Positions 11,787 to 62,181 of a stretch of 64,000 bases of DNA are shown piece after piece. This DNA comes from a virus. Below the pieces are notes generated by a model. That model was not told the origin of the DNA and ran no database searches. It worked only from the letters and a program-made list of their open reading frames with translations. Location of the stretch: positions 16,456 to 80,455 of the IMG/VR virus record IMGVR_UViG_3300021364_001752, one strand, 5' to 3'. Both the position numbers and the translations under genes were made by a program. Within the stretch, counting starts at the first letter, position 1. Every line of letters starts with the position of its first letter.

Positions 11787-11805
11787 TGTGTTCTCCGTGT
11801 TACAG

Positions 11806-11968: not shown

Positions 11969-11993
11969 AATACTTAGACACACGGAGATTAAT

Positions 11994-12197
11994 ATGAGTG
12001 ATACTGTAAGAGCAGCAGCACAAAAGCAAGCCGAAGAAGCAATGGATGGATTTATCCTATGGAGCAAACGAGTCACACTGTGGAGCGCATTCTTTTTATG
12101 TGTTGTTGTATTTGCTTGTAACTCAGGCGTAGACGGCAGTGGCAGTGGTTATAACGGAGAACAATATTCTCCTAGCAACTTGAATGTTAAAAAATGA
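11994..12197 (+). CDS. Small single-pass membrane protein
   Basis: The product is 67 aa: a polar N-terminus with a basic patch, one hydrophobic helix (VTLWSAFFLCVVVFAC, residues 28-43), then a Gly/Ser-rich tail. The cysteine at the end of the helix could be a lipidation site, but the N-terminal part is long for a lipoprotein signal. It overlaps the next gene by 4 bases. Its function is unknown. Confidence 0.65.
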   Translation: MSDTVRAAAQKQAEEAMDGFILWSKRVTLWSAFFLCVVVFACNSGVDGSGSGYNGEQYSPSNLNVKK

Positions 12198-20950: not shown

Positions 20951-21641
20951 AACTGTATATTCAATAGGGTGCAGTCATACTAATGGCTGCATGATTGACG
21001 GTATAAACGGAACAAGTAAAGTTAATAAACAAAATAGCTTTGCAGGACAAATTGCAAAAAGGCTTAAAGCAACACATTATAATCTGTCTTTAAACGGCGC
21101 AAGTAACCAGTATATATTTCGCATAGCTAACCAAGTTGTAGCGCAGGTCACTGACTCTGATGACACATTGTTTATAATAGGGTGGACTAGTCCTACTAGA
21201 TTAGAGTTAAGAGAAGATAATAAAATTTTTCCAGGCCATCCTGAGGGATATGACAATAACTATATTCCTTTTAGTGTTGGGGCTAATAAAGACAACTTTT
21301 CTAAAGAGTATAAAAGGCTATTAAATGATGCACCTGCATTGTGTAATATAACAATGTTAATTGATCACTGGACTTGCTACATCATTGCACTTCAAAATTT
21401 ATTTGCACAGCATAAAATAAGATATATAATGTGTAATACAATGCAGCCCATTGAGCAAACAAGCAATAATAGTGACATGATTAAAATGATAGATACATCA
21501 AATTATTATAAACCTTTTGATGTTGATGAAAGTTTTTATAATTGGGCAAACCTTAATTATGAAAGAACACCATGTCATCACTTCCCCTTAAAAGCACATA
21601 AAGATTTTGCTGTAAAAATTATGAAAGAGATGAAATTATGA
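20943..21641 (+). CDS. SGNH-like protein (SIGCSHT family), copy 1
   Basis: The start at 20943 (MVKTVYSIGCSHTNGCMIDG) overlaps the heme oxygenase stop. The product is 232 aa. The N-terminal G-C-S-H-T block lies where SGNH/GDSL hydrolases have GDS, and NLSLNGASNQYIFRIANQVV has the G..N pattern of block III. FIIGWTSPTRLELR and a C-terminal C-H-H-F-P-L segment follow. The window protein at 61456 is a clear paralogue (GCSHTHG, GVPGASNTYIFRA, LIGWTSQDRMEMR, CWHHRRHAH). The missing usual Ser nucleophile makes the activity uncertain. Its relatives sit beside radical SAM genes at the other locus too. Confidence 0.75.
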   Translation: MVKTVYSIGCSHTNGCMIDGINGTSKVNKQNSFAGQIAKRLKATHYNLSLNGASNQYIFRIANQVVAQVTDSDDTLFIIGWTSPTRLELREDNKIFPGHPEGYDNNYIPFSVGANKDNFSKEYKRLLNDAPALCNITMLIDHWTCYIIALQNLFAQHKIRYIMCNTMQPIEQTSNNSDMIKMIDTSNYYKPFDVDESFYNWANLNYERTPCHHFPLKAHKDFAVKIMKEMKL

Positions 21642-22324
21642 GTGAAGTTTGGAATACACTGATTAAAATTCAAGATAGACTAATTGAACGTTTTGATGAT
21701 ACTGGCAAAGAAATAGAAGAACCAGGAATGAATAGATTCAATCAACCAGGCTGGATTAATAGAGTTTGGAGCAGTGAAGCCTATCGTCGAGCTCACGTAG
21801 ATGTTGTCGATGCAAGAGACACTAAAGGTCTATGGATGATGCATTGTTGTGTGTTTCCACACTTGCACAACGATGGTCCTATCTTTGGATTAGATGTTAT
21901 TGCAGGTAAAAATAAAATTACAGGTTACTTTCATGATTACTCACCGACTAGCAATCCTGCAAATGAAATGATTGAGGCGTTTGGAGATGAAGTTGCAAAA
22001 CTAGAATGGCGCAAACCTCGCGAGCTACCAGATTGGGCCAAAGCAATATTTACAGAACATATGGTAGCAGCAGGAAATGTTAACAGCGAAGAAGAATTAC
22101 AGCAGTTGCTTGATCTTAGTTTTGAAAGCATAGATAACTATCTAGAATACATTAGTGCATACAATAACGTAGCCAACGAGCAAGCAGGTAAAGATGCACA
22201 AAATCGCTATGCTCATTATCAAAAACAAAATCCGCATACGCCACGCACAATGACCAGTTTAGGACTTGATGAAGAAGATGTGCAAGTATTTGTGCAGGAG
22301 TGTCTTTTTCCCGACATTGAATAA
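21638..22324 (+). CDS. Ferredoxin-dependent bilin reductase (PcyX/PebS-like)
   Basis: This 228-residue protein matches the FDBR family: YRRAHVDVVDARDTKGLWMM, then CVFPHLHNDGPIFGLDVIAG, the central sandwich carrying the substrate-protonating Asp, and DYSPTSNPAN. The C-terminal part has the helix ending in AGKDAQNRYAHYQKQNPHTP. FDBRs reduce biliverdin to phycobilins with electrons from ferredoxin. Upstream heme oxygenase would supply the substrate. Phage FDBRs of the PebS type make phycoerythrobilin; PcyX-type enzymes were described from phages of presumed non-cyanobacterial hosts. Which product is made here cannot be read by eye. Confidence 0.9.
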   Translation: MSEVWNTLIKIQDRLIERFDDTGKEIEEPGMNRFNQPGWINRVWSSEAYRRAHVDVVDARDTKGLWMMHCCVFPHLHNDGPIFGLDVIAGKNKITGYFHDYSPTSNPANEMIEAFGDEVAKLEWRKPRELPDWAKAIFTEHMVAAGNVNSEEELQQLLDLSFESIDNYLEYISAYNNVANEQAGKDAQNRYAHYQKQNPHTPRTMTSLGLDEEDVQVFVQECLFPDIE

Positions 22325-23349
22325 TGCCACAATGCAAAGCTCTAACAAACCAACTTCATATTAATGTAGACGGGGAATATAAGCCCTGTTGTGCCTATAG
22401 TGGTGATACAGGTTACAAGGTAGCTAACACCGATCATAAAGATTTTTTGTCCAGCCCGTTGATGCAAACCATTAAGCAAGAAATGGAACAAGGATGGCAT
22501 GACGGGTGTCTTGGGTGCAAACACGCAGAAGAAAGTGGACAAATGAGTGCTCGCAATGCATTTAATATGTGGTGCAAACAGCAACCTGGTGTGTTAGAAT
22601 ATCTTGATATAAGTTTAAGCAATCAATGCAATCTAGCCTGTAGAATGTGCAATGAGATAAGCAGTAGTCGTTGGGAAAAATTATTAGACTGTAAAACTGC
22701 TCCTAAAAATAATTTAGATAGCATAATAAAAGACCTAGATTTAAATCTATTAAATCACATAAAGTATCAAGGCGGCGAGCCTTTTATAACTCCTGAAATA
22801 ATAGATGTGTTAAAATTAGTTGCTTCGCAAAAAACTTTCTTTACATTCAGCACCAACTTGACGCTGTATCCTAAAAAGTATGAAAGCCTACTAATGCAAG
22901 CCAAAGGAATATATGCAAACTTTAGTTTGGACGGATACAAGCATGTAAACAATTATATAAGAAGTTGTGCTTGGGATACTATAGATTCTAATCTAGATCG
23001 TTGGCTTAAATTTTTTAAAAAATACAATATCAAAGGTATGCAAAATGTTAGCACAGTGGTTCAAGCTCTAAATTTTCACGACCTTCAAAATATAAAAAAT
23101 TATGTAAACGGAAAAAATATAATTTGGATAGCACAAGAAATAGTAGATCCTGATTATATGAGTATAAATGCTTTACCTGAATCTTATATAGAGCAAGTTA
23201 TAGACGATGTAAATTCAAAATTTTTACACTCATACAAATTTGATCAACAACTTTTTAAAGATTTTAAACAAAACATTTTGGCACAAGATAAGTTGTTAGG
23301 CACAACATTGCAAACAGTAAATCCGTTGCTGTATTCTTATTTAGAATAA
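22324..23349 (+). CDS. Radical SAM protein with N-terminal SPASM/twitch-like cysteines (locus 1)
   Basis: The product is 341 aa. The radical SAM cluster motif CxxxCxxC is Cys102, Cys106, Cys109 (SNQCNLACRMCNE), followed by the GGEP SAM-binding motif (KYQGGEPFITPEI). In front lies a second cysteine set: Cys4, Cys22-Cys23, then Cys62 and Cys65, which probably binds an auxiliary iron-sulphur cluster. This order (auxiliary module first) and the exact C-x17-CC spacing are shared with four proteins at 55-61 kb. The substrate is unknown. It overlaps the bilin reductase gene by one base, so it belongs to the heme oxygenase operon. Confidence 0.9.
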   Translation: MPQCKALTNQLHINVDGEYKPCCAYSGDTGYKVANTDHKDFLSSPLMQTIKQEMEQGWHDGCLGCKHAEESGQMSARNAFNMWCKQQPGVLEYLDISLSNQCNLACRMCNEISSSRWEKLLDCKTAPKNNLDSIIKDLDLNLLNHIKYQGGEPFITPEIIDVLKLVASQKTFFTFSTNLTLYPKKYESLLMQAKGIYANFSLDGYKHVNNYIRSCAWDTIDSNLDRWLKFFKKYNIKGMQNVSTVVQALNFHDLQNIKNYVNGKNIIWIAQEIVDPDYMSINALPESYIEQVIDDVNSKFLHSYKFDQQLFKDFKQNILAQDKLLGTTLQTVNPLLYSYLE

Positions 23350-25287: not shown

Positions 25288-25770
25288 ATGAAAAGAATAG
25301 CGAACATCGCCATGTTGCTGCCTATGTTTGTGTCACTGTCAGTGTCACATGCAGGAGCAGATCTAGTTCATCAGTTTAAAAATCCCAGTTTTAGTGGTAT
25401 TGGGTATAGCACCCATGTTTTGAGTTTAGAACAATTACAATTTAACAGAACAGAGGACATTGCAAAGGCAGCTGAAGCAGAAGAGCGTAGGCTAGAGCGC
25501 GAGCTAGAAAATTCAACATTAAACAAATTTATTAAAAATGTAGAGTCTCGCATATATGCAACATTGAGCAAGCAAATGGTAGACGCTATGTTTGAATCAT
25601 GCACTGATGACACTGGGCTTACCTGTCCTACAAGCGGAACTACTGAAATTGAGGATAGCACCATTACTTGGAGCAAAGATACAACCACAGGAGAAATTAC
25701 AATTGTTGTTGATGGTCCTGACGGTTATACTGAAATCAGCATACCGGGATCAGGGGAGTTTGCCTTTTGA
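25288..25770 (+). CDS. csgF: CsgF-like curli assembly factor
   Basis: This 160-residue protein has a signal peptide (cleavage after SVSHA, about residue 22). The next segment, DLVHQFKNPSFSGIGYSTHV, matches the N-terminus of CsgF, the part that enters the CsgG pore and forms its second constriction. LSLEQLQFNRT follows. The C-terminal half contains a Cys pair (ESCTDDTGLTC) and a strand-rich end. CsgF normally tethers nucleator to the secretion channel at the cell surface. csgG follows with a 4-base overlap, which supports the call. Confidence 0.88.
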   Translation: MKRIANIAMLLPMFVSLSVSHAGADLVHQFKNPSFSGIGYSTHVLSLEQLQFNRTEDIAKAAEAEERRLERELENSTLNKFIKNVESRIYATLSKQMVDAMFESCTDDTGLTCPTSGTTEIEDSTITWSKDTTTGEITIVVDGPDGYTEISIPGSGEFAF

Positions 25771-26546
25771 AGTATTTAATGATACTTGGAATTTTATTTT
25801 TAACAGGTTGCACGGTGCCACAAAGCGTTCAAGAAGCAATGGATAGCGAACCTGAAGTCCAAGTAAATCCTATGCAAGCTGAGTTGAGAGCACTACCTGG
25901 ACCAGATGGCGATCCAGTGCCAATAGGTGTTTACAGTTTTTCAGACAAAACTGGACAGCGTAAGCCTGCTGACAGTGTAGCAAATCTAAGTTCAGCTGTT
26001 ACACAAGGCGCAGAAGTATGGCTTATTGATGCACTACTGGAGGCAGGCGAAGGCGAATGGTTTAATGTTGTCGAGCGTGTTAGTTTAGACAACATTATAA
26101 GAGAAAGACAACTTATACGAAGCACAAGGGAAAATTATGATGATCCAAGTCCTTTAGAGCCAATGCTCTTCGCAGGAGTGGTTTTAGAAGGCGGAATTAT
26201 AGGATATGACAGCAACCAGACCACAGGAGGGTATGGTGCAAGATATTTTGGAATAGGCGCTGCTACTGAATACAGAGTAGATACTGTGACAGTTGGCATG
26301 CGTTTAGTGAGCGTTGGCACTGGAAGAGTGTTAATGAGCGTGGCAGCAGAGAAGACTATAGCTAGCCATAGGAGTGGGGCAGATGTTTTTAAGTTCTTAG
26401 ACATGAGCACCAAGGCACTGGAAATAGAGAGCGGATACAGTGTCAATGAGCCTACCAATTATGCTGTGAGGGCAGCAATAGAGGCAGGAGTAATAGAACT
26501 AATTTATGAAGGAAATCGAAAAGGTTTTTGGACATTTAAACAATGA
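25767..26546 (+). CDS. csgG: CsgG curli secretion channel lipoprotein
   Basis: This 259-residue lipoprotein has the signal MKYLMILGILFLTGC with a lipobox (LTGC). The mature protein follows CsgG closely: PIGVYSFSDKTGQRKPADSV, SSAVTQGAEVWLIDALLEAG, WFNVVERVSLDNIIRERQLI, then the transmembrane hairpin regions around GGIIGYDSNQTTGGYGARYF and VDTVTVGMRLVSVGTGRVL. CsgG forms a nonameric outer-membrane pore that exports curlin subunits. CsgE is not seen. Phage-encoded CsgG could export the two curlin-like proteins downstream or serve as a pore. Confidence 0.95.
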   Translation: MKYLMILGILFLTGCTVPQSVQEAMDSEPEVQVNPMQAELRALPGPDGDPVPIGVYSFSDKTGQRKPADSVANLSSAVTQGAEVWLIDALLEAGEGEWFNVVERVSLDNIIRERQLIRSTRENYDDPSPLEPMLFAGVVLEGGIIGYDSNQTTGGYGARYFGIGAATEYRVDTVTVGMRLVSVGTGRVLMSVAAEKTIASHRSGADVFKFLDMSTKALEIESGYSVNEPTNYAVRAAIEAGVIELIYEGNRKGFWTFKQ

Positions 26547-26558
26547 GGGCAACGATAA

Positions 26559-27266
26559 ATGAAAAAAATAATATATGCCGCCTTATTTGGTCTTATTAGT
26601 TCGGTTGCATTAGCAAATGAAATTTATATCAGTCAAATAGGTGACACATTAGACTTAGACATTACCCAAAGCGGTGATAACAACAAAATAGGAACCAGTT
26701 TAGCCGATATGGTTATTCAAGGTGACGACATGACATTCAGTATTACACAAACTGGAGATAGCAATACGATTGATGCAACTATAAAAGGAGCCAATTATAC
26801 AGGCACATGGGATTTTACAGGAAGCAATAACGATGTTGATCTTTTATGTAGTTCAACTACCGCAGGCAATTGTGATACTGTAACCCTTAACATAGATACC
26901 ACTGGCGGATACAACAATTTCACATTTGCTATTGGCGAAACCGCTTCGGCTGACAGCAGTATTATTAACTTTACTGTGACAGGGGATAGTCAAGTATTTG
27001 ATGTTACTGTAGATGGCGAAGCAATTGATGTAACAGTTGTAATTGATGATGGCACAAGCGGTCTTACAAACACAGCGGGCAACACTAACAATTTAACAAT
27101 TGATACAAGTGGCAATGGCGGAACCAACGGTAACACAGTTGACTTGAACATTACAGGTTCGGGTGGGACATACAACGTTACACAAACAGGAACGCTAATT
27201 GATCAGACCATTGATGCAACATTCAGTGGCGATGACGCAACAGTTGATATCACACAGAGCGACTGA
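26559..27266 (+). CDS. Curlin-like repeat protein, copy 1
   Basis: The product is 235 aa with a signal peptide (cleavage after SVALA, residue 19). The mature part has curlin-type repeats: IYISQIGDTLDLDITQSGDN, FSITQTGDSNTIDATIKG, NVTQTGTLIDQTIDATFS and VDITQSD. The hallmark is x-(I/V)-x-Q-x-G-x-x-N spaced about 20-25 residues, which stacks as an amyloid beta solenoid in CsgA and CsgB. The middle repeats are degenerate and Thr/Asp-rich. It lies directly after csgG, its probable exporter. Confidence 0.85.
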   Translation: MKKIIYAALFGLISSVALANEIYISQIGDTLDLDITQSGDNNKIGTSLADMVIQGDDMTFSITQTGDSNTIDATIKGANYTGTWDFTGSNNDVDLLCSSTTAGNCDTVTLNIDTTGGYNNFTFAIGETASADSSIINFTVTGDSQVFDVTVDGEAIDVTVVIDDGTSGLTNTAGNTNNLTIDTSGNGGTNGNTVDLNITGSGGTYNVTQTGTLIDQTIDATFSGDDATVDITQSD

Positions 27267-28357
27267 TGTGGAGATTGTTATTTGTGCTGCTGTTTTTTGC
27301 CAGCAGTGCTATAGCTCAAATAGGCGAAATCGCTGACATAGAAGGCAGCGGCATTGTTAAGCGTGACAGTGAAAAGATAAAAGGTGAACTGGGCATTGGT
27401 GTTCAAATGGCCGACAAAATTATTACGGCCAAAGGACGTATGCAATTACACTTCTCTGACGAAACTCGTGTAGACGTAACTGAGCATAGTGCAATGGTGA
27501 TCGATGAGTTTATATATGATCCTGCACAAGGCACAGGTGCATTAAAAATGCGAGCTACATTGGGTGCAGTAAGATATGCCAGCGGACAGATAGCCAAAAC
27601 CAGCAGACAAAGAGTTAGTATCAGAACACCTAGTGCAACTATCGGTGTTCGCGGCACAGACTTTATAATGATTGTTGATGAAATAGGCGGCAGCATGGTT
27701 ACCCTCTTACCTAGCTGTGATGACAGAGGCTTTTGTATGGTTGGTGAAATTACTGTAGAGAGCGATGCAGGTATTGTAATAATGAATCAAGCCTATCAAA
27801 CAACAATAGTTAAACACAGTGCTGCTCCTCCTGCGCCACCTAAGATATTAGACTTACCAGACGATCTTTTACGTGCAATGTTGATAGTAAGAAAGACTTC
27901 TCCTTACGATGAAATTAATGAAGAGGCTGTAGCTGCAACAGATATTTTAAAATTTGATTTTCTAGCATTTGATGGTTTAGATGAGGATTTACTTAATGCA
28001 GATGAGCTATGGGTAACTGATTTAGACAATGAATCTTATTTAAACCAAATGTTTGTAGATCAGTTAACCCAGGCACTGAAAGAATTGTTCGCATTACTTA
28101 CAAGTCTATTGGATTTACAAGCAGAAGAATTTATGCGTATACAAGTATTTGGATACGATCCCGAAACTGGTATAACCTTAGAAGACCAGCCACCAAATTA
28201 TGTATTCACACGAACAGAAAATACACACCATGTGAGATTAACATTGAATGAAAATTATGGTTATAATATTGATTTAATTCAAAACGATTTTTCAATATTT
28301 GATTACAGTATAGGAGTAGGAGCAAATGACATTTACATCAATCAGCAAGAAAATTAA
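27266..28357 (+). CDS. Secreted FecR-domain protein
   Basis: The product is 363 aa with a signal peptide (cleavage after SSAIA, residue 17). A FecR domain follows: GEIADIEGSGIVKRDSEKIK, VQMADKIITAKGRMQLHFSD, RVDVTEHSAMVIDEFIYDP, then SIRTPSATIGVRGTDFIM. The last block is the signature of FecR proteins in outer-membrane/secreted contexts. The C-terminal half is acidic and ends in a strand-rich segment. It lies between two curlin-like genes and overlaps both, so it may act on fibre assembly or anchoring; that is inferred. Confidence 0.87.
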   Translation: MWRLLFVLLFFASSAIAQIGEIADIEGSGIVKRDSEKIKGELGIGVQMADKIITAKGRMQLHFSDETRVDVTEHSAMVIDEFIYDPAQGTGALKMRATLGAVRYASGQIAKTSRQRVSIRTPSATIGVRGTDFIMIVDEIGGSMVTLLPSCDDRGFCMVGEITVESDAGIVIMNQAYQTTIVKHSAAPPAPPKILDLPDDLLRAMLIVRKTSPYDEINEEAVAATDILKFDFLAFDGLDEDLLNADELWVTDLDNESYLNQMFVDQLTQALKELFALLTSLLDLQAEEFMRIQVFGYDPETGITLEDQPPNYVFTRTENTHHVRLTLNENYGYNIDLIQNDFSIFDYSIGVGANDIYINQQEN

Positions 28358-29018
28358 ATTGCTGGTATTATTTGCAGCATTTCCTGCCCATGCTAACGAA
28401 ATTTATATTACGCAAACCGGTGATAGCCTTGCCTTGCGTGTTGAGCAGCGAAGTGCAGACAATTATGTCAATCTAAGCAGCACTGGTAATACAAACGACA
28501 TAAGCATTACACAAGGCATGCATTACGATGGCTCTACATATTGGGTAGACACAGACGAGACTGGTGGACACGAAGCATACTGGACCATTACTGGTGCAAA
28601 CAATACCGTGTGGAGTAGTCAAACAGATGTCAACAGAGGTGGTGGTGGAGGATCTCCGCACCATTTGGCAAACATAGTAAATGGAGATTACAATACAATT
28701 GCACATACACAAATGGGAAAAGCAGGACACGATGGCTTTGTAGAAATACAAGGTGACAACAATGATGTTACACTTTATCAGAGAGGTAATGGTGGTGCAA
28801 AGTGGGCAGATGTTGTGCTCAACGGTGATGGACATAGTGTAGACGTTAACCAAAGAGGAAGCCAAAGTGCTAATGCTACTGTAGATTTAACCAATAGTGG
28901 CGGTGCATATGATTTTATACTCACACAGAATGTTACTACTAGTGCTGATACATATAGTATAACTGGCATTTGCACAAACAGTGCAGGTTGCGCATTGTCT
29001 GTTGATCGCAACAACTAA
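28326..29018 (+). CDS. Curlin-like repeat protein, copy 2
   Basis: The product is 230 aa with a signal peptide (cleavage near FPAHA, about residue 23). It opens EIYITQTGDSLALRVEQ, parallel to copy 1, and repeats NDISITQGM, NTIAHTQMG, NNDVTLYQRGNG, HSVDVNQRGSQSA and FILTQNV. The spacing and Q-x-G-x-x-N pattern are curlin-like but more diverged. It overlaps the FecR-domain gene by 32 bases. Two different curlins with CsgF and CsgG would be enough for a nucleator/major subunit pair. Confidence 0.82.
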   Translation: MTFTSISKKIKLLVLFAAFPAHANEIYITQTGDSLALRVEQRSADNYVNLSSTGNTNDISITQGMHYDGSTYWVDTDETGGHEAYWTITGANNTVWSSQTDVNRGGGGGSPHHLANIVNGDYNTIAHTQMGKAGHDGFVEIQGDNNDVTLYQRGNGGAKWADVVLNGDGHSVDVNQRGSQSANATVDLTNSGGAYDFILTQNVTTSADTYSITGICTNSAGCALSVDRNN

Positions 29019-31665: not shown

Positions 31666-33714
31666 ATGACCAAAAAAATTCTTCTGTCACCACTGTGGAG
31701 CGTTCTGCTTTTAGGCCTCTTAGCCTACGTGATATCGCTGTCGCCCAGCTTCCTGCAGAGCATCCAACTAAGATACTTCGACCAACTTATAATCAATCAA
31801 CCAAAAGTTGAAAACAATATCTACACTGTAGACATTGACGAAGATACAATCAACGCATATGGACAATGGCCATTTCCAAGGGGCGATTATGCAATGCTTA
31901 TTGATGATCTTTATGCTAGGGGTGCAGGTTTGGTTGTGTTCAATGTTTTAATGAGTGAGCCTGATAGGTCTGGTCAGGACGATATACTTGCAGATACAAT
32001 GGAACAGTTTCCTGTTATTTTAACCATGCTAGGAGCAGCAGAAGGTAAAAATGAACCTATCAATCCAGGTGCAACCATTGTTAACAGTGACTTCTTACAC
32101 ACAATTCCCAGTGTTCCAGGCATAATTGCCAATGTGCCTGAAATTGAAAATGTAGCAGTTGGAAGTGGAATAATCAACTCATGGGCAGAAATAGACGGCG
32201 TTACTAGACGCATACCACTGGTTGTTATGGCTGATGGCACATTGTATCCTAATGTAACAATGGAAGTGTTACGTGTGTTAGCAGGTGATCCCTCGTTCCA
32301 AATCAAACTAAATGCACTAGGTGTAGACAAACTACGCATACCACAGTTTGGCTTTTTACAAACAAATCCAGATGGTGAAGTATGGATTGACTGGAGTCAA
32401 GGATATAAACGTTATAGTGCAGTAGACTTGCCAGACGACTTTGCGGGTGGTATTGTATTTGTAGGTCCAACAGCAGCTGGTGTAACACAACCTATAGCTA
32501 CTGCAATGGGCAGTGTATTTCCGCATCAAATACAAGCAGCATTGCTTGGCACAGTTTTTAACGAATCAAACATAAGCAGACATCCTGACGCAGAAGCATG
32601 GGGCGAATTAGCCGCCTTTGTTGTTGCAGGCTTGCTGTTAATCGCACTCGCCCGATGGACATATGTTGGCATAGCCTTTTACATTATGTCAGTAGGCGGC
32701 TTTATTGGAGTTAGTATATATGTATTTAATACGCAAAACATTCTTATTGATGGCGCTACTATCAGTGCTTTCCTCTTGCTCGTGGGCCTTCAACGATACG
32801 TGCTCAAGTTCATCGACGAGTTCTTGCAAAAGCAAGCCATTAAAAAACAATTCGAAGGATACGCCAGCCCAGCAGTTGTTAAATTACTACAACAATCTCC
32901 AGAGCTTGTTAAGCAGGGTATAAAGAAAGATGTAAGCATCGTGTTCTCAGACTTACGTGGCTTTACACCATTAGGTGAAAGTTTTGGTGATGATGTGCAA
33001 GGACTTACAAGAATAATGAATGGCTATATGGATGCCATTACACAACCTGTGCTAGACGCAGACGGGATGATTATAAAATATATTGGTGATGCAAGTATGC
33101 ATATACACAACGCACCTATAGACGATGCTAACCACGCTAGAACAGCAGTGCAGTGTGGCTTAGACATGTTAAGAGCAGTGGAGAAATTCAATGACGAAGT
33201 TATTATTCCAGAAGGTCGCCCTCCTGTTGGGATGGGTGCTGGGATTAATACTGGCCTTGGCTACATTGGCGAAATGGGCAGTAGTAAGCGGCATAGTTAC
33301 GATGTGCTTGGAGACGCCGTCTCAACGGCTGCTAGGGTTGAATCTAAATGTAAAGAATACGGTTGTTTGTTATTGGTGGGAGAAGCCACCTATGAAGCAA
33401 CTAAGGATGATTTCTTCTATTTAAAAATTGACGACTTGCAAGTTAAAGGCAAAAGTGTAGGATTAGGCATTTATACAGTTTTAGACGACACAAAGGCACA
33501 CTTTACAGTTAGCAAAAAGTATCACGATCAAATGCACAAACAATATAGAGATCAAGACTTTGACGGTGCTATAGAAACAATAAAGAAAATATACAGTGGA
33601 TTTGATGGCAGGATGCAAGGGTATTATGATATGTGGATAGAACGTTGTGAGTATATGAAGAAGCAAGAATTGCCTTCAAATTGGAATGGCACATTTATAG
33701 CAACGTCTAAATAG
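31666..33714 (+). CDS. CHASE2-domain class III adenylate cyclase
   Basis: The product is 682 aa. An N-terminal membrane helix (WSVLLLGLLAYVISLS) precedes a periplasmic CHASE2 sensor domain with YFDQLIINQPKVENNIYTVD and EDTINAYGQWPFPRGDYAML. Then come about three membrane helices (residues 305-375) and a class III cyclase domain. Metal-binding Asp is in FSDLRGFTPLGE; the substrate-specifying Lys and second Asp are in IIKYIGDASM. VLGDAVSTAARVES has the conserved Arg, but Ser replaces the usual transition-state Asn. It would make cAMP in response to an envelope signal. Reduced activity is possible because of the Asn to Ser change. Its length is normal for the family, so it is not truncated. Confidence 0.93.
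   Translation: MTKKILLSPLWSVLLLGLLAYVISLSPSFLQSIQLRYFDQLIINQPKVENNIYTVDIDEDTINAYGQWPFPRGDYAMLIDDLYARGAGLVVFNVLMSEPDRSGQDDILADTMEQFPVILTMLGAAEGKNEPINPGATIVNSDFLHTIPSVPGIIANVPEIENVAVGSGIINSWAEIDGVTRRIPLVVMADGTLYPNVTMEVLRVLAGDPSFQIKLNALGVDKLRIPQFGFLQTNPDGEVWIDWSQGYKRYSAVDLPDDFAGGIVFVGPTAAGVTQPIATAMGSVFPHQIQAALLGTVFNESNISRHPDAEAWGELAAFVVAGLLLIALARWTYVGIAFYIMSVGGFIGVSIYVFNTQNILIDGATISAFLLLVGLQRYVLKFIDEFLQKQAIKKQFEGYASPAVVKLLQQSPELVKQGIKKDVSIVFSDLRGFTPLGESFGDDVQGLTRIMNGYMDAITQPVLDADGMIIKYIGDASMHIHNAPIDDANHARTAVQCGLDMLRAVEKFNDEVIIPEGRPPVGMGAGINTGLGYIGEMGSSKRHSYDVLGDAVSTAARVESKCKEYGCLLLVGEATYEATKDDFFYLKIDDLQVKGKSVGLGIYTVLDDTKAHFTVSKKYHDQMHKQYRDQDFDGAIETIKKIYSGFDGRMQGYYDMWIERCEYMKKQELPSNWNGTFIATSK
33707..33713 (+). 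promoter_or_regulatory. Late promoter motif CTAAATA, 5 bases before a start codon
   Basis: CTAAATA overlaps the cyclase stop and is followed by GTATT and the ATG at 33719. No ribosome-binding site is seen. Confidence 0.4.
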
Positions 33715-53800: not shown

Positions 53801-54982
53801 ATGAAACACGCTTTTATTCTAACTGAAGTAGAGCCTACTCCTCACGGAGCACTGACTGCTACTAGGCAGAGTGGACCTCCCAGTGTCCCTATTGACAGCA
53901 TGTTGGCACACCTAGGCGGCTTTAACATGAGTGAATTTTACACATGGGAGAAGCGACATCTTACAAAAAACTGTGATAGGATTTATGTAACATATTTTTT
54001 GCACATGCCTCAAATTGTGCATTTTAACTTCAGCGACAAAATTGTAGAGGAACTAAAAAACAATCCTAAATATTTTTTGGTGTGTTTTAGTATGCTCGAA
54101 GGTGTTATTACACCAGAGCAGTTGGCTAGCGCAGCGAAAGACAAAGGTCTGCCGCTTGAAAAGATAATAGTTGTATGCAGTAACTATCCTGCAGATAAAA
54201 CTACACAAAACGGTATTAAATTTGTTTATATTGATTTTTGGGAAAGTTTTACACGCTTCCATCAAAGATGTATGCCAGGCAGCACTGAGTTAAACATTAA
54301 TGAAAGAAAAAAATCACTTCCAAGGGCTAGAAGAAAATTTTTATGTTTGAATAGAAATATCAAAGCACATCGTATTTGGTTCTATTGGTTGTTGTTACAA
54401 AAGAATCTAGTTGAACGTAATCACGTAAGCTATCACTTGCCACGTATCAACAAACCGCAGTATATGCTGGAAGCTCTTAATTATGACACAACCAAATATA
54501 TTCCTAAGTTATTGCATAAAGAATATCATATAGCTTTGAAAAGACAAATACATCCACGTCAGTTGGATAAAATTGACAGTGAATATATTATTAATTATAG
54601 AGAAACTATTAAACCTTTTTACAAAGACAGTCTGTTTAGTATAGTAACAGAAAGTGATTTTAGATTGCCGTTTTTAACTGAAAAAACATATAAAGCTATT
54701 GCTCACTGTCATCCGTTTTTCATTATTGGAAATCCAGAACATCATCGTTTGCTTAGGGAAAAGGGATATTATACATTTGAAAACTTTTTTGGCGTTTCTC
54801 AAGTTACCAACTGGGAGGAAGCAGAATTGTTTTTAGATAATATATCTAGAATTGATTTAGAAACTTATAAAAGTAAAGTTACAGAAATATTACCAATGTT
54901 GGAACACAACTACAATAACTTTTTTGAAAGAAGCCTAGAATGGTCTGAGGTTAAACAAAAAATAGATTCAGTGGCCGGATGA
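53801..54982 (+). CDS. Glycosyltransferase-like protein
   Basis: The product is 393 aa, with no signal peptide. The C-terminal half has LFSIVTESDFRLPFLTEKTY, then KAIAHCHPFFIIGNPEHHRL and REKGYYTFENFF. This pattern (T-E-K-x-x-K, aromatic-P, G-x-x-x-L, G(Y/F)x-T-F) resembles the donor domain of alpha-1,3-fucosyltransferase-like (GT10-type) enzymes. The N-terminal half is not typical. It is the first gene of the radical SAM array, and its stop overlaps the next start. The reaction may attach a sugar to the same target that the array modifies; this is inference. Confidence 0.65.
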   Translation: MKHAFILTEVEPTPHGALTATRQSGPPSVPIDSMLAHLGGFNMSEFYTWEKRHLTKNCDRIYVTYFLHMPQIVHFNFSDKIVEELKNNPKYFLVCFSMLEGVITPEQLASAAKDKGLPLEKIIVVCSNYPADKTTQNGIKFVYIDFWESFTRFHQRCMPGSTELNINERKKSLPRARRKFLCLNRNIKAHRIWFYWLLLQKNLVERNHVSYHLPRINKPQYMLEALNYDTTKYIPKLLHKEYHIALKRQIHPRQLDKIDSEYIINYRETIKPFYKDSLFSIVTESDFRLPFLTEKTYKAIAHCHPFFIIGNPEHHRLLREKGYYTFENFFGVSQVTNWEEAELFLDNISRIDLETYKSKVTEILPMLEHNYNNFFERSLEWSEVKQKIDSVAG

Positions 54983-56190
54983 TGCAGGATAACAAAGAAC
55001 ATTTTTGCATGGCACCTTGGGTGCATATGAGTGTGTGGCAGACAGGAGATGCATATCCTTGTTGTATCTATCACTGGGACATGCCAGTAGACAATATTAA
55101 TCGCAGTGGAATTAAGGGTGCATGGAACAGTGAAAAGATGCGTGAACTGCGTTTGCGTATGCTTGCAAATGAGCCAAGCGAAGGTTGTGCAAAGTGTATT
55201 AACTATGATAAAGATGGCATTATCAGTTATAGACACAAGATGAACACTGAGTATGCACATCACAAAGATGTGGTAGAAAGCACACACGATGACGGAACTG
55301 TTGATAAACTTAATCTAGCGTATTTTGATATACGGTTTAGTAATCTATGCAACATGAAATGCCGTAGCTGTGGTCCGCACTTTAGCAGCAAGTGGGCTGA
55401 AGACCTTTCTGGCAAGCCGGAAGTAATAGAAATCAATCATCCCGACATGTGGGAAGAAATAGAAGAAGTGTTACCTACTATTGAAGAAGTTTATTTTACA
55501 GGTGGAGAGAGCTTGTTTATGTCACAGCATTATAGATTGCTAGACATGCTTATAGAGCGTGGACTCAAACCGAGACTGACATACAACAGCAACGCAACAC
55601 GCCTGAGTCTCAAAGGCAAACACATAAAAGATTATTGGCAGCATTTTGATCGTATCTTTTATTGTGTAAGTTTGGATCAAGTAGGACCTAAAGCAGAGTA
55701 TACACGCAATGGCCAAACATGGGATACAGTGTTTACCAACCTGTGTTGGATACGTGATAACTTTGAACACAGTTATGAAAAAGGTGTGATAATACAACCC
55801 AACCCAACTATCAGTGTATTAAACATTTTGGATTTAGATTACATTATTAAATTTTTATTTGATAATAATATACCAACTGACTTTGATATAAATTTAAGCA
55901 ATGTATTAATAGGCCCCGAATGGTTAAGTATTACAATATTGCCAACACATATTAAAGATATTGCAAAACAAAAATTAGAAGCACTAAAAATAGATTTAGA
56001 TAATTATAAAATGTATCCAGATAGAAAAAACTTCATTGTTAATGGAATTGACAATATTATTAATCACATGTATAATGAAGATAACTCTAACTTGATTCCA
56101 AAGTTTAGACAGGAAATGCAAAAGATGGACATGGTAAGAAATGAAAACTTTTTAAAAGTATTTCCGGAGTTAAAGGATCTATATGTCTAA
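54979..56190 (+). CDS. Radical SAM protein with N-terminal SPASM/twitch-like module (array 1)
   Basis: The product is 403 aa. N-terminal cysteines are Cys10, Cys28-Cys29 (FCMAPWVHMSVWQTGDAYPC), then Cys70 and Cys73. The radical SAM motif CxxxCxxC is Cys124, Cys128, Cys131, followed by FTGGESLFMSQH. The spacing C-x17-CC is the same as in the 22324, 56183, 57385 and 59554 proteins. The first half resembles a SPASM domain moved to the N-terminus. Overlap with the glycosyltransferase-like gene suggests joint expression. The substrate is unknown. Confidence 0.92.
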   Translation: MMQDNKEHFCMAPWVHMSVWQTGDAYPCCIYHWDMPVDNINRSGIKGAWNSEKMRELRLRMLANEPSEGCAKCINYDKDGIISYRHKMNTEYAHHKDVVESTHDDGTVDKLNLAYFDIRFSNLCNMKCRSCGPHFSSKWAEDLSGKPEVIEINHPDMWEEIEEVLPTIEEVYFTGGESLFMSQHYRLLDMLIERGLKPRLTYNSNATRLSLKGKHIKDYWQHFDRIFYCVSLDQVGPKAEYTRNGQTWDTVFTNLCWIRDNFEHSYEKGVIIQPNPTISVLNILDLDYIIKFLFDNNIPTDFDINLSNVLIGPEWLSITILPTHIKDIAKQKLEALKIDLDNYKMYPDRKNFIVNGIDNIINHMYNEDNSNLIPKFRQEMQKMDMVRNENFLKVFPELKDLYV

Positions 56191-57388
56191 AATAAAAGAC
56201 TCAAAAACATTTTGTATAATGCCATGGATTCACATGCACATGTGGCCCGCCGGAACAACTTATCCGTGCTGTCTAAGTGATCCAAATCATCCTGTAGGAA
56301 ACACACAAGAACAAAGTTTGCAGGACATTTGGAATGGTCCAGAAATGCGCAAACTTAGGTTGAATATGCTTGAGGACAAAAAATCCCCAGAGTGTAGACG
56401 CTGTTACGAACTAGAAGAAAACGGCGTATGGACATTACGCAATAGCTCAAACGCAAACTTTGAACATCATTTAAACAAAGTAGAACAAACTGCTGAAGAC
56501 GGAAGTGCTGGTGATGTAAATATGGCTTACATGGATATACGCTTCAGTAATCTCTGTAATCTAAAATGTCGCAGTTGTGGACCTCAGTTCAGCAGCAGTT
56601 GGTTTGAAGACCATAAACAAACACACGGCGATCCAGGACATCCTAAAATACTACAAGTTCGTGAAGAAATGAAAAGTTTTATGGATGAACTTGATCCATT
56701 GTTAGAAACTGTAGAACGTGTATACTGGGCAGGTGGCGAGCCATTAATTACAAAAGAACATTACGACATACTTGACAAATGGATTACGATGGGCAAACGT
56801 GATGTTAAGATGGATTACACCACAAACTTCACACAGATGTTTTACAAACGCAAAACAGCATTTGAATATTGGAATGCATTTGATCATGTAAGAGTTGCAG
56901 CCAGCTTGGATGCCAATCACAGTAGAGCAGAATATTTGCGTAAGAACATGGATTGGTCAATTGTTGTGCAAAACAGACGTGATATGATTGAGCAGTGTCC
57001 ACATGTATATTTTGAAGTAACACCTACTGTGAGTGTTTACAATGTTTTGAATCTGCCTGACTTCCATAAAGAATGGATTGAGGAAGGGTTGCTTGAGCCT
57101 GGTAATATGAGAATTAACATCTTGTTGGATCCAACTTATATGAGATTAAGCATACTACCTCCTTGGAAAAAAGATGCAGTGCGTAGCAGATATGAAGAAC
57201 ATTTATCTTATCTAAAACAGTTTGATGATATTGATGCTGTGGTAAATCATTATAATAGCATATTGCAATTCATAGAAGAAGACAGAACAGAAGAAATTAA
57301 AATGTTTATGTATAAAACAAATAGGGTTGATTTATTACGCAAAGAAAATGTGTTTGATACGTTTCCTGAACTAGAAGGTTTACAATGA
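56183..57388 (+). CDS. Radical SAM protein with N-terminal SPASM/twitch-like module (array 2)
   Basis: The product is 401 aa, the closest relative of the preceding protein. Cysteines are Cys11, Cys29-Cys30 (FCIMPWIHMHMWPAGTTYPC), Cys71 and Cys74, then CxxxCxxC at Cys125, Cys129, Cys132, and WAGGEPLITKEH for SAM. The similarity extends to the C-terminus (MRINILLDPTYMRLSILPPW against the parallel WLSITILPTH region). A tandem duplication is likely, with later divergence. The reading frame overlaps the preceding stop by 8 bases. Confidence 0.92.
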   Translation: MSKIKDSKTFCIMPWIHMHMWPAGTTYPCCLSDPNHPVGNTQEQSLQDIWNGPEMRKLRLNMLEDKKSPECRRCYELEENGVWTLRNSSNANFEHHLNKVEQTAEDGSAGDVNMAYMDIRFSNLCNLKCRSCGPQFSSSWFEDHKQTHGDPGHPKILQVREEMKSFMDELDPLLETVERVYWAGGEPLITKEHYDILDKWITMGKRDVKMDYTTNFTQMFYKRKTAFEYWNAFDHVRVAASLDANHSRAEYLRKNMDWSIVVQNRRDMIEQCPHVYFEVTPTVSVYNVLNLPDFHKEWIEEGLLEPGNMRINILLDPTYMRLSILPPWKKDAVRSRYEEHLSYLKQFDDIDAVVNHYNSILQFIEEDRTEEIKMFMYKTNRVDLLRKENVFDTFPELEGLQ

Positions 57389-58593
57389 CAGATACCTATT
57401 GTGTTTACCCATTTATAAATGTGCATACAAATACAGATGGCAGGTGCAAATTGTGCTGTCATGTTTACGGAGAAGATTACATACAAGTTGACGGCAAAGA
57501 TGCTGTGCTTGGAAAAACAGATTGGACTAACATTTGGAATAGCAAATACATGCTAGATGTTAGAGCAAACATGTTAGCAGGTAAGCCTGTTAAAGAATGT
57601 AGTCGCTGCTACGAGCATGAAGAAAAAGGTTTACAAAGCAGTAGGCAGTGGGCAAACGAAAACTATAAGGCACCCATGTTGCATAGCAATCCTACTCACC
57701 TGGAACTTAGGCTTGGCAATCACTGCAACCTAAAGTGCAACAGTTGTTGGAGTGTTAGCAGCGACAACATTTACAAAGAACGCAAAAAGATTATGAGCAA
57801 AGAGCGTTTGCCTACTTGGTTGCACGATCAGTGGGCACACGAAATACGCAGCGTAGAAGAACATGATTGGCAGTGGTATGAAACACAGGAGTTCCGTGAC
57901 TTTGTAGATAGCGTAGCACCAACACTGGAACGATTATACATGACAGGTGGTGAACCAACACTAATACAAGCAAACCAATATGTGTTGGACAAACTAGTAG
58001 AAACGGGCAACCGCAAATGTCATGTTGCTTGGACAACCAATATGACAACATGGCCCAAAGGCTTTTACGACAAATTAGACTTCTTTGATAGCAGTGAAAT
58101 ACAGATGAGCATAGACGGTTACGATGCACACAATCAGTATATACGATATCCTACTGATTGGAGCAAGGTAGAAGAAAACTTTGCAAAAGCAATGACACTG
58201 CCTAGCAAAGTAGAACTAAAAATATACTTTGTGTATCAAGCATGGAATGTGTTTGATGTAGCACCATTAATCAAATGGCTAGAAGATGCACAAACAAGAC
58301 GTGTGGATTTTGTGCCTATCTTCCTTGAGCATCCTGATCAGTTGCACAGTTGCGTATGGCCTGAAGAAATTAGACACAAAGCACTAGACGACTTACGGAT
58401 GTTAAAAACTACAATGCATAGAGATCCTGTCCAAAGAATCATTAACTACACAGTTAATACCGATAAATATTCTGTAGAAAACATTAAACGTATGAAACAG
58501 TTTATTGATATAAACGACAAATACAGAAAACTTAAATTCTCTGAAGTTTTTCCTGCACTGAATTATATATTGGAAACTGAATGCAAGATATAA
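57385..58593 (+). CDS. Radical SAM protein with N-terminal SPASM/twitch-like module (array 3)
   Basis: The product is 402 aa. Cysteines are Cys6, Cys24-Cys25 (YCVYPFINVHTNTDGRCKLC), Cys72 and Cys75, then CxxxCxxC at Cys114, Cys118, Cys121, followed by MTGGEPTLIQAN. This copy is the most diverged of the four N-terminal-module proteins in the array, with a longer segment between CxxxCxxC and GGEP. It overlaps the previous stop by 4 bases (ATGA). Confidence 0.92.
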   Translation: MTDTYCVYPFINVHTNTDGRCKLCCHVYGEDYIQVDGKDAVLGKTDWTNIWNSKYMLDVRANMLAGKPVKECSRCYEHEEKGLQSSRQWANENYKAPMLHSNPTHLELRLGNHCNLKCNSCWSVSSDNIYKERKKIMSKERLPTWLHDQWAHEIRSVEEHDWQWYETQEFRDFVDSVAPTLERLYMTGGEPTLIQANQYVLDKLVETGNRKCHVAWTTNMTTWPKGFYDKLDFFDSSEIQMSIDGYDAHNQYIRYPTDWSKVEENFAKAMTLPSKVELKIYFVYQAWNVFDVAPLIKWLEDAQTRRVDFVPIFLEHPDQLHSCVWPEEIRHKALDDLRMLKTTMHRDPVQRIINYTVNTDKYSVENIKRMKQFIDINDKYRKLKFSEVFPALNYILETECKI

Positions 58594-59573
58594 AAGCAAT
58601 TGTTCCTGCAAAGGATAAATGGGTAAGCATAGTATGGCAAGTAAACGATTGGTGTAACTTTCGTTGCACATATTGTAGTGAATGGAACTGGGCAGGACGT
58701 AACAAAAATGATACCGACATTCAGTTGATTGTAGACACACTTGAAAGAATAGTAAAACACTATCAAAGCAAAGGATATGTGTATTTCAAACTATTCCTCA
58801 GCGGTGGCGAGCCTACATTTTGGAAAGGTCTTATTCCTGTAGTAGAAAAATTTAGGGAACTAGTTGAGTGGCCCGGCAGTTGTGTGGGCATCAACACAAA
58901 CTTTTCAAAGCCATTAAGTTGGTGGAAAGAACATCATCACTTGTTTGAAGATGTTGTTGCAAGTTACCATGCTGAATGGAGCAAAGACGACAAGTATATG
59001 GAGACATATAAATTTCTACAAGACAAGAAAAATTACCTTTGCAGTAGAATAATGATGCACCATAACAAATTTGAACAGTGTGTAGATTTTGCAAATCGTA
59101 TTAAAGATGAGTGCGACAATTATCATATAGAGTATGCTCCGGTTTATGACGAGCTTCGTCCAAGCACTGATCCTTATCACTACGAAGAACAATGGAAAAT
59201 GGATTTCTTTAAAACTCATAGCACAGAGCGTAATCAAACTATTCCTGTTAAGAAAGACCCAAGTTATGCGTGGGCAAAAGTTTGGTATGAAGATGATACC
59301 GAAGATGCTATTGATACAAATGCTATAATCACAGAAGGAAAAAACTTTTTCAAAGGTTGGCTTTGTAACATTCACGAAAGTTTACATATACATCCAAATG
59401 GTAGAATACAGGCCGCAAGCTGTGGTGTAGGACCAATTGTGGGTAATATAGTTGAAGGCAAGTTTGACAGTGATTTAGCAGAAGGTATATGGTGTCCTAA
59501 GACACACTGCCATTGTGCAGCAGACTTTAACATAAGCAAAGCAAGGCCTGAGTATGCAGAAAGAATTAGATAA
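58581..59573 (+). CDS. Radical SAM protein without N-terminal module, C-terminal cysteine cluster (array 4)
   Basis: The product is 330 aa. The radical SAM motif comes early: Cys25, Cys29, Cys32 (NDWCNFRCTYCSEWNWAG), then LFLSGGEPTFWKGL. There is no N-terminal auxiliary module. A cysteine set lies at the C-terminus instead (GWLCNIHESLHIHPNGRIQA, ASCGVG, then CPKTHCHC), the ordinary SPASM position. It is therefore a second architecture within the same operon. It overlaps neighbours by 13 and 20 bases. Confidence 0.92.
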   Translation: MQDIKAIVPAKDKWVSIVWQVNDWCNFRCTYCSEWNWAGRNKNDTDIQLIVDTLERIVKHYQSKGYVYFKLFLSGGEPTFWKGLIPVVEKFRELVEWPGSCVGINTNFSKPLSWWKEHHHLFEDVVASYHAEWSKDDKYMETYKFLQDKKNYLCSRIMMHHNKFEQCVDFANRIKDECDNYHIEYAPVYDELRPSTDPYHYEEQWKMDFFKTHSTERNQTIPVKKDPSYAWAKVWYEDDTEDAIDTNAIITEGKNFFKGWLCNIHESLHIHPNGRIQAASCGVGPIVGNIVEGKFDSDLAEGIWCPKTHCHCAADFNISKARPEYAERIR

Positions 59574-60891
59574 CTTACCAGGGAATTTTTGTTACTATGC
59601 AATGCAGGGTTATAGCACCCATCCGCATGGAAGAACACGCCCTTGTTGCTTTAGCAGAGTAGGCACCAATGAATACATGCCAGATGTTGATATACACAAC
59701 ATACCAGAATGGGAACATCACAACAATCGCAACTCTAAGAACATCGATGAATTTATAAATGATGCTGCGATAAAAACTATTCGCAAGGCATTGATTGCTG
59801 GCGAAAAGCCTGCAGGCTGTGCTGAATGTTTCAAATTAGAAGATCAAGGTATACGCAGTTTTAGACAAACTTTCAATGAAGTTTACGCAGACGAAATTGA
59901 CAGCAGTTTACAGTATCTAGGAGAGGACGGAAGTTTAAGTCCTCAAGCAATTACATACTTGGATATCAGTTTAGGCAATGTGTGCAATTTAAAATGCCGT
60001 AGTTGTAACCCATGGGCAAGTCATAACTGGATAGAAGAAGGCCCAACAGTTCCGCATACAGACTGGGACAAAACTGCCTATACCATAGGCAACATGAGTT
60101 GTAAAGATCCGTGGTATATTGCAGCATTTGAAACAGGATTTTTTGATGAAGTCTTGCCCAATATAAAACGTATAAATTTTATTGGCGGCGAGCCACTGGT
60201 AGTAAAAGAACACTACACATGGTTAAGGCATATTGCACAAAACGGCTGGGCTGAAAATATAGAACTGCATTACAATACAAATGCTACAACTTTTCCAAAC
60301 GAACTTTTGGATTTATGGAGCATGTTTAAAGGTATTGTTTTAAGTATTAGCATTGATGCTGTAGAAGATTTGGCATACTATGTTAGATTTCCAAGTAAAT
60401 GGCGTGTGGTTCAAAAGCAGGTTAACAAACTAAAAGAATTTAGCAAAGACAAAAAAGGTGTTACAGTGCAAACGCACGTCACTTTAAGTGTTCTTAATTT
60501 GCACGATTTGCCCAATGTGCTGTCTTGGTGCGAAGACAATTACAATACCTGGCATCATACATGGGAATGGGGCAATTGGGGATATCAAAACTGTTTGCCG
60601 CATTTTAATTTTGTCGAATGGCCTCAAAACATGAGTATAAAACATTTGCCAGAAAAACAAAAACAAAAAATGATTACGATGCTGGACGAACAGTATGCTA
60701 AATTTGCTGCGAAAGATTTACCGGAATGGGAACAACACAGTATTGAAAATATCAAAGGTATAAAAAACATACTCACACAACCTCGAGACGATACAATGTG
60801 GCAGCATTTTATAGACAATACTCGTGCAAGCGACAAGTTTCGCAATGTAGATATTTGCGATTATATTCCATGGATGGAGGAATACATTTGA
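59554..60891 (+). CDS. Radical SAM protein with N-terminal SPASM/twitch-like module (array 5)
   Basis: The product is 445 aa, the longest of the set. Cysteines are Cys13, Cys31-Cys32 (FCYYAMQGYSTHPHGRTRPC), Cys89 and Cys92, then CxxxCxxC at Cys144, Cys148, Cys151, with FIGGEPLVVKEH. Extra length lies between the N-terminal module and the GGEP region. It is followed by two SGNH-like genes. The ribosome-binding site lies within the previous gene. Confidence 0.92.
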   Translation: MQKELDNLPGNFCYYAMQGYSTHPHGRTRPCCFSRVGTNEYMPDVDIHNIPEWEHHNNRNSKNIDEFINDAAIKTIRKALIAGEKPAGCAECFKLEDQGIRSFRQTFNEVYADEIDSSLQYLGEDGSLSPQAITYLDISLGNVCNLKCRSCNPWASHNWIEEGPTVPHTDWDKTAYTIGNMSCKDPWYIAAFETGFFDEVLPNIKRINFIGGEPLVVKEHYTWLRHIAQNGWAENIELHYNTNATTFPNELLDLWSMFKGIVLSISIDAVEDLAYYVRFPSKWRVVQKQVNKLKEFSKDKKGVTVQTHVTLSVLNLHDLPNVLSWCEDNYNTWHHTWEWGNWGYQNCLPHFNFVEWPQNMSIKHLPEKQKQKMITMLDEQYAKFAAKDLPEWEQHSIENIKGIKNILTQPRDDTMWQHFIDNTRASDKFRNVDICDYIPWMEEYI

Positions 60892-61472
60892 GATTACTAA
60901 GTTTAGGTGATAAAACTTTACAAGAAACCCATTACCATGTCAGCTTGTTTTTCGACGCTGACATTGTGGACTTGACATACAAGGATGCAAGCATACAAAC
61001 TATATATAGATTGTTGGTTAAATTTTTATGCGAAGCATACAATCCTAGAGACGAGTATGTTGCTTTAATACAAATTCCTACAACCAAAAGATTAGAATTA
61101 AGGCACGACACAAATCAAAACACAGACTTTTTTGATAATAACTATTTTGTTTATTATCCAAGATCAAAAGACTTTCCTAAACTAATATATGCAAAATTAA
61201 AAAAGTTTAATGCACCTATTTTTGAACAGAAAATGATAAACAACAGACACAGTTATTTTATCTATGCTATATCAAATCTATTGGAAATTTACAATATAGA
61301 TTATATTATGTTCAATGCCGATGAGCCATTGGATAAGGATATCCCAGTTCCAAAAAATTATTTTGCACCATATGCATATAATAAAACTGCAAACTATGTT
61401 TTGGATCAGGAAGAAACTGAATTGTATTATTCACAAAAACTAACGAGGTTCTATCGTGACCACTGTAGTTAG
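60888..61472 (+). CDS. SGNH-like protein, degenerate member (TTG start)
   Basis: The start is the TTG at 60888, overlapping the previous stop (TTGA), with ATGGAGG upstream. An ATG at 60798 lies inside the previous gene. The product is 194 aa, starting MRLLSLGDKTLQETHYHVSL. It shares with its downstream neighbour the order LIQIPTTKRLELRHD (compare LIGWTSQDRMEMRYD) and IYNIDYIMFNADE (compare QKNIKYLMFNTCQE). The GCSHT motif is lost, so it is probably inactive or has a structural role. Confidence 0.6.
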   Translation: MRLLSLGDKTLQETHYHVSLFFDADIVDLTYKDASIQTIYRLLVKFLCEAYNPRDEYVALIQIPTTKRLELRHDTNQNTDFFDNNYFVYYPRSKDFPKLIYAKLKKFNAPIFEQKMINNRHSYFIYAISNLLEIYNIDYIMFNADEPLDKDIPVPKNYFAPYAYNKTANYVLDQEETELYYSQKLTRFYRDHCS

Positions 61473-62181
61473 TATAGGATGCAGTCATACACATGGCAGT
61501 ATGCTGGATGGAGAAAATGGCACCAGCTTATATAACAAAGAGAATGCCTACGGACCGCAATTGGCAAAACTACATAATTTTGATTTCCTAAATCTAGGAG
61601 TTCCTGGCGCAAGCAATACTTATATCTTTAGAGCAACAATAAACTTTTTGCAAAACCATCTTAAAAAGAAAGAAGACTATATTTTCTTAATTGGATGGAC
61701 AAGCCAAGACAGAATGGAAATGCGTTACGATGAAAACAATAGATTTAGACATGACACCATCGGCGACCTAATAGATACAAAATACATTCCCTTTACTTCA
61801 GGAACTTCAAAAGGATTGATGAAAACTTTCCATCACAGAAAACTGCTGGATTTAACGCCTTTATTTTTTGATACAGTGCAAGCACATGACGAATGGGCCA
61901 GCTATGCATTTGGCTTGCAAAAAATACTTAGTCAAAAGAATATAAAATATCTAATGTTCAACACTTGTCAAGAGCTTAAGATAACCGAAAACAATTATCG
62001 CATAATTGATAATCTGGATACAACACATTACCTACATCCACAAAACTCAGAGGAAGTGTTCTTAAATTGGGGTATGAACAGAGGCCACGAAATTACAGAA
62101 TGCTGGCACCACCGTAGGCATGCACATATTGCATGGGCAAAATATTTAGATATTGTTTGTAAAAACCTAGATTTCTATTGA
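61456..62181 (+). CDS. SGNH-like protein (SIGCSHT family), copy 2
   Basis: The product is 241 aa, starting at GTG (61456) with ACGAGG upstream, overlapping the previous gene by 17 bases. SIGCSHTHGSMLDGENGTSL at the N-terminus and NLGVPGASNTYIFRATINF match the window protein at 20943 almost block for block, as do FLIGWTSQDRMEMR and the C-terminal CWHHRRHAHIAWAKY. The G-C-S-H-T block replaces the GDS motif, so a nucleophilic Ser is present but displaced. It ends the radical SAM array. Confidence 0.78.
   Translation: MTTVVSIGCSHTHGSMLDGENGTSLYNKENAYGPQLAKLHNFDFLNLGVPGASNTYIFRATINFLQNHLKKKEDYIFLIGWTSQDRMEMRYDENNRFRHDTIGDLIDTKYIPFTSGTSKGLMKTFHHRKLLDLTPLFFDTVQAHDEWASYAFGLQKILSQKNIKYLMFNTCQELKITENNYRIIDNLDTTHYLHPQNSEEVFLNWGMNRGHEITECWHHRRHAHIAWAKYLDIVCKNLDFY

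Follow-up and report, generated by a model that had tools for sequence, protein, structure and literature searches.

Ordered arrays of N-terminal-twitch radical SAM genes linked to glycosyltransferases in phages, and their probable role in glycan tailoring

The stretch of DNA analysed here, referred to as the window, comprises 64,000 nucleotides (bases 16456-80455) of the 80455-base virus record IMGVR_UViG_3300021364_001752. Eight plus-strand genes within it overlap in series (Table 1) and therefore form a single tightly packed block, 53801-62181, in which five consecutive members, R1 to R5, encode radical SAM proteins; a further gene of this kind, R0, lies outside the array. A first-pass annotation of the sequence had described five overlapping radical SAM genes in a row, and the coordinates agree in this with the Pfam and NF033640 matches. 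The first gene of the block shares 4 bp with R1 and is preceded by a gap of 15 bp. The gene annotated from 60798 probably has its real start further downstream; its product, the next one and a third SGNH-like protein encoded at 20916 constitute one family. A search with the T4 late promoter TATAAATA returned 4 matches against 5.6 expected, and no direct DNA matches to window positions 40000-62000 were found in the phage collection.

Table 1. Genes of the block and the separate gene R0, in window coordinates.
Feature	Position	Strand	Evidence
Predicted GT-B fold glycosyltransferase, family c1, first gene of the block	53801-54982	+	Structure model and Foldseek
R1, N_Twi_rSAM	54979-56190	+	NF033640, E 2.9e-109, 365.8 bits; motifs; structure model
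R2, N_Twi_rSAM	56183-57388	+	NF033640, E 3.7e-119, 398.4 bits; Pfam SPASM at residues 11-75
R3, N_Twi_rSAM	57385-58593	+	NF033640, E 1.3e-90, 304.3 bits; own orthologue clade
R4, radical SAM, C-terminal cysteine module, ordinary domain order	58581-59573	+	Pfam Radical_SAM
R5, N_Twi_rSAM	59554-60891	+	NF033640, E 6.7e-97, 325.1 bits; own orthologue clade
SGNH-like protein	60798-61472	+	Clusters with DUF6071/SGNH family; profile weakly matches GDSL lipases/esterases
SGNH-like protein, DUF6071 family	61456-62181	+	PF19547, E 1.7e-9; GCSxT and HPxxxxH in alignment
R0, N_Twi_rSAM outside the array	22324-23349	+	NF033640, E 1.3e-53, 182.5 bits

The window contains a permuted tmRNA gene of alphaproteobacterial type (8960-9430, tag ANDNFAPSEFALAA), which makes an alphaproteobacterial host of the phage probable. 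Other features of the window include a curli operon at 25288-29018, with CsgF (25288), CsgG (25767), two curlin-repeat proteins (26559 and 28326) and a protein with a FecR domain (27266), and, just downstream of it, a protein with CHASE2 and adenylate/guanylate cyclase domains (31666-33714). Outside the window the same record (L087) encodes a NifU-domain Fe-S protein (11788-12105) and a sulfotransferase-family protein (4258-4821).

R0, R1, R2, R3 and R5 share the same domain order and all score above 170 bits, the curated threshold of the NCBIfam family NF033640 (N_Twi_rSAM, 'twitch domain-containing radical SAM protein'), with E-values between 1.3e-53 (R0) and 3.7e-119 (R2), so that their common layout reflects homology and not chance; R4 scores 15.2 bits and falls outside the family. 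The motif order C-x17-CC, CxxC, CxxxCxxC, GGE, which had been noticed in R1, R2, R3, R5 and R0, is present in all of them, and the spacing from C to CC is exactly 17 in each case (R0 C4/C22C23, R1 C10/C28C29, R2 C11/C29C30, R3 C6/C24C25, R5 C13/C31C32). Since the five belong to a named family, the reversed layout is already catalogued; the NF033640 entry names the architecture only, to which the arrays and the gene linkage are added here. Genes of this type are common across aquatic phages and Bdellovibrio-like bacteria, and a pattern search of IMG/VR for close relatives of R0 found none.

R4 has its core cysteines at C25/C29/C32 and additional ones at C262, C281, C305, C310 and C312, at the C-terminus instead of the N-terminus, as the first reading of the sequence had stated; these C-terminal cysteines are conserved in an alignment of 28 R4-type members. 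R0 directly follows a bilin reductase gene and lies one gene after the SGNH-like gene 20916-21641, within a run (20414-23349) of heme oxygenase, SGNH-like gene, ferredoxin-dependent bilin reductase and R0.

A profile built from 45 N-terminal modules gave a single convincing match in the PDB, the twitch of BtrN (E 3e-5, next match 0.43), and the alignment spans the cluster cysteines of the module. Pfam SPASM matched the first approximately 70 residues of R0, R1 and R2 above its cut-off and R3 below it; R5 gave no match. A SPASM domain is defined by a seven-cysteine motif with two auxiliary clusters, and SPASM identity was rejected because the module has 4-5 conserved cysteines and BtrN twitch as its only convincing PDB match. 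A BtrN-type twitch has one auxiliary site built from Cys, beta-hairpin, Cys and then CxxC, and both the profile match and the conserved cysteines place the module in this class. The earlier proposal of an auxiliary module ahead of the radical SAM core thus stands as regards the order, the module being a twitch and not of SPASM type.

Within the 45 modules C10, C29, C70 and C73 (R1 numbering) are invariant. Among 95 diverse homologues C10 and C73 occur in every one, C29 in 92 and C70 in 90, and the first position of the CC pair is Cys in 82 and Ser in 13, the second being Cys in 92. Because these four are conserved, whereas C28 may be Cys or Ser, they are the likely ligands of the auxiliary cluster, although the spacing relative to BtrN would favour C28 instead. 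The N-terminal twitch is accordingly predicted to hold one auxiliary [4Fe-4S] cluster. In the structure prediction that had been suggested as a check, R1 models confidently (pLDDT 95.7, pTM 0.92) with a helical tail C-terminal to the core, the cluster itself being a prediction. BtrN, the butirosin 2-deoxy-scyllo-inosamine dehydrogenase, has an alignable auxiliary cysteine layout (C, hairpin, C, CxxC), but its twitch follows the core, while in the phage enzymes the twitch comes first and the helical tail last. Auxiliary twitch and SPASM domains are usually C-terminal extensions (PMC9012708), so the domain order is reversed here.

A scan of viral contigs listed at least 600 candidates, nearly all of them relatives. 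The best 80 loci among these candidates typically carry 4-8 N_Twi genes in about 20 kb, and of 27 long records, 26 have a largest cluster of at least 4-6 genes, the counts being lower bounds. The array loci were picked by likeness to R1; contigs found via the glycosyltransferase alone also have clustered N_Twi genes. A census had been proposed as a way of telling arrays from single unlinked genes, and arrays are the rule. Cellular homologues (L095-L146) are mostly from the predatory Bdellovibrionota and are often themselves arrayed alongside genes of the R4 type.

In a tree of 105 proteins, calculated by a quick method, with some weak deep forks and R0 on a long branch, R1, R2, R3 and R5 each fall in a separate clade together with the genes in the same position of other loci (L006, L008, L010, L012, L013 and L016, plus L014 for R2, R3 and R5), and the sisters of R3 and R5 are different Bdellovibrionota lines. 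R2, R3 and R5 are only 24-37% identical to R1. On this tree the four are separate ancient orthologous lines in kept order and not recent duplicates. Compared with up to four relatives, R1-R5 have dN/dS values of 0.03-0.16, with dS saturated, which indicates purifying selection on R1, R2, R3 and R5; identity of R1-R5 to their relatives is mostly 64-89%, with a minimum of 56%. The alternative, in which the array arose as a side effect of tandem duplication and its redundant copies provide dosage and not different steps, could draw on the adjacency and common architecture of four members. It is very improbable in view of the low identity to R1, the separate clades with kept positions and the grouping of two clades with different Bdellovibrionota lines, and recent tandem duplication is largely refuted by the tree. 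A gene for a B12-binding radical SAM protein of ~720 residues is found between R2 and R3 in the close relatives L006-L011, L014, L162 and L167 and is absent from the window and L157; it may represent a lineage-specific extra step.

Searches of the first gene of the block against family profiles gave no match. Foldseek paired its AlphaFold model (pLDDT 91.4) best with trehalose-6-phosphate synthase, the glycosyltransferase of phage HY126 and fucosyltransferases, every one of them a GT-B enzyme. With E 6.9e-5, a probability of 1.00 and numerous separate GT-B entries among the matches, the protein models as a GT-B fold, with sugar transfer as the predicted activity. Among the matches listed, 97 GT-B copies in 27 records lie at a median distance of 3.8 kb from the closest N_Twi gene, as compared to 17.7 kb in a circular-shift control, in which none of 5000 shifts was as good (P<2e-4). 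Two GT-B profiles were also used to collect new contigs with a minimum length of 15 kb, and N_Twi genes are present in 33/42 and 61/63 of these (94/105 together). Control loci around phage nrdB, with a minimum length of 8 kb, contain them in 0/44 cases. The size of this effect is overstated, because the controls are shorter and the GT-B queries were drawn from N_Twi loci, while its direction is sound. An order common to many contigs is structural gene, fibre-like gene, two GT-A-like genes (c2), a GT2-like gene (c3), both assignments being weak, N_Twi array, R4 type, GT-B and epimerase/carbamoyltransferase. Bacterial N_Twi genes have GT2 and DegT and class-V aminotransferases as neighbours, and in one Rhodobacteraceae genome they lie near a sugar kinase and an aldo/keto reductase. 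As N_Twi enzymes almost always adjoin sugar-transferring enzymes, remodelling of a sugar coat is the most likely function, although radical SAM and glycosyltransferase genes may cluster through a shared hypervariable host-recognition island alone.

That the array lies in many contigs a few genes past structural or fibre-like genes, in conserved order, would also suit enzymes which modify amino-acid side chains in a structural protein of the phage, such as a tail fibre, or in a ribosomally synthesised peptide, in the manner of SPASM/twitch peptide maturases. SuiB and EpeE are among the fold neighbours, and other lineages encode the small conserved proteins c6 and c13 close to the array. We consider this unlikely. 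c6 and c13 are absent from the group of the window, and the overlapping genes of 53801-62181 and the 15 bp before them leave no room for a precursor gene, in keeping with the absence of an evident precursor peptide remarked on in the first-pass annotation. Every match to a peptide-maturase model was far below its cut-off, the N-terminal module is a twitch and not a peptide-binding element, and the linkage to glycosyltransferases would go unexplained.

The PDB neighbours of the core fold are viperin, BlsE, MoaA, SuiB, SpeY and DesII, and also QueE and EpeE. The substrates of BlsE, SpeY and DesII are sugars or sugar-like compounds. With viperin, MoaA and QueE among the top fold matches, and weak profile matches to all three, the enzymes might act on nucleotides or nucleic acids, for example in DNA or tRNA hypermodification. 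This is still less probable than modification of a protein or peptide: membership in the viperin family is rejected by scores of 19.7-32.9 bits against the NF038283 cut-off of 180, membership in the MoaA family by scores far under its cut-off, and the linked genes in phages and bacteria are those of glycosyltransferases and not of nucleotide or DNA modification.

We regard the tailoring of a glycan by distinct radical steps as the best explanation of the block and as somewhat more probable than its contrary. It is favoured by the BtrN twitch match, the BlsE, SpeY and DesII neighbours, the glycosyltransferase linkage, the orthologue lines and purifying selection. Among the possible targets named at first, glycan, peptide or nucleotide, the linkage speaks for the glycan, and the other two are disfavoured. 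The proposed series of modifications to a single target gains strength, short of proof, because the members of the array are distinct conserved orthologues. Several points count against glycan tailoring: viperin, MoaA and peptide maturases are also among the core fold neighbours; the glycosyltransferase next to the array evolves faster than the radical SAM enzymes (dN/dS 0.25-0.36, 34-41% identity to relatives); no fibre genes immediately flank the array in the group of the window; and some bacterial arrays adjoin unrelated housekeeping genes (L114). That no substrate or activity is known to us for the NF033640 members found here likewise counts against this explanation. No functional study of the N-twitch family was found in the literature searched.

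From the enzyme families and their neighbours we infer stepwise tailoring by the block, and with it cluster occupancy, a sugar substrate, the order of steps and the target. R1, R2, R3 and R5 would each generate a 5'-deoxyadenosyl radical and abstract hydrogen from a sugar or sugar-linked substrate, at positions that differ from enzyme to enzyme, with the auxiliary cluster accepting an electron in an oxidation or in a step of an epimerisation or deoxygenation. BtrN, whose auxiliary cluster is of the four-Cys type, oxidises an aminocyclitol (PMC9012708), and a cluster like that of BtrN would suit the two-electron oxidation of a sugar or cyclitol alcohol. R4, with ordinary domain order, would contribute a further radical step, the glycosyltransferase would attach the product and the SGNH-like proteins would put on or take off acyl groups. 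The combination of several regiochemically different enzymes with a transferase and SGNH-like proteins is consistent with a glycan being tailored step by step. The modified glycan might change the surface of the infected cell, for superinfection exclusion or an altered receptor, or be displayed on the virion.

Multiple radical SAM genes in a marine phage are not new, since cassettes are published (PMC5332604, PMC7029224). According to the accessible text of PMC7029224, pelagimyophages, which are marine and T4-like, carry radical SAM cassettes in a host recognition cluster, an island shared with glycosyltransferases, and like the window have a curli operon, in their case with CsgF and CsgG and without CsgA/CsgB, while curlin-repeat proteins are present in the window; that text gives no enzyme family, orthologue order or link to particular glycosyltransferases. 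The T4-like marine genome TARA_ERS488813_N000010 has 12 radical SAM genes and Fe-S assembly genes, as the contig of the window encodes a NifU-domain protein; the accessible part of the source reads the radical SAM genes as Fe-S metabolism and leaves gene order unanalysed (PMC5332604). An ocean virome study lists radical SAM and glycosyltransferase genes among the features of one water mass (PMC7150976). The family and the marine-phage cassettes were thus already known; the array size as a norm, the ordered orthologues, the glycosyltransferase linkage and the relatives in KVP40 are new.

Three KVP40 proteins, 0260, 0261 and 0272, match the N_Twi profile with E-values of 1e-36 to 1e-41 and have the N-terminal cysteine layout in common with the phage array, 0260 lacking GGE and the CC pair; they differ in being encoded by two adjacent genes and one apart, with no array of four, and in their very distant sequence. 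The 0272 type was found in 40 phage records, all of Vibrio phages, with about three N_Twi places each. Phage QD01, a relative that grows on the laboratory strain Vibrio natriegens Vmax, has the 0272 orthologue and three N_Twi places. Two genes from 0272, KVP40 0274 is assigned in its record to the glycosyltransferase family PF00534, an assignment that a search of the protein against Pfam did not bear out. The N_Twi genes of the distant Vibrio phage K566 are interleaved with GT8, GT4-like and GT8 genes. Cultured Vibrio phages of the KVP40 group, which include well-studied laboratory phages, are a tractable model for N_Twi genes.

With 4-7 non-redundant N-twitch enzymes, the R4 type and, in close relatives, a B12-dependent enzyme, marine phages could, as a tentative proposal, possess a multi-step radical assembly line for a hypermodified sugar that alters host receptors or virion fibres. 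To our knowledge no comparable radical assembly-line pathway has been characterised in any virus. The glycosyltransferase linkage, the ordered orthologues and the KVP40-like relatives make an unexplained family testable; if the proposal is true, glycans would be substrates of phage radical enzymes, and this would add a new layer to the contest between phage and host at the cell surface.
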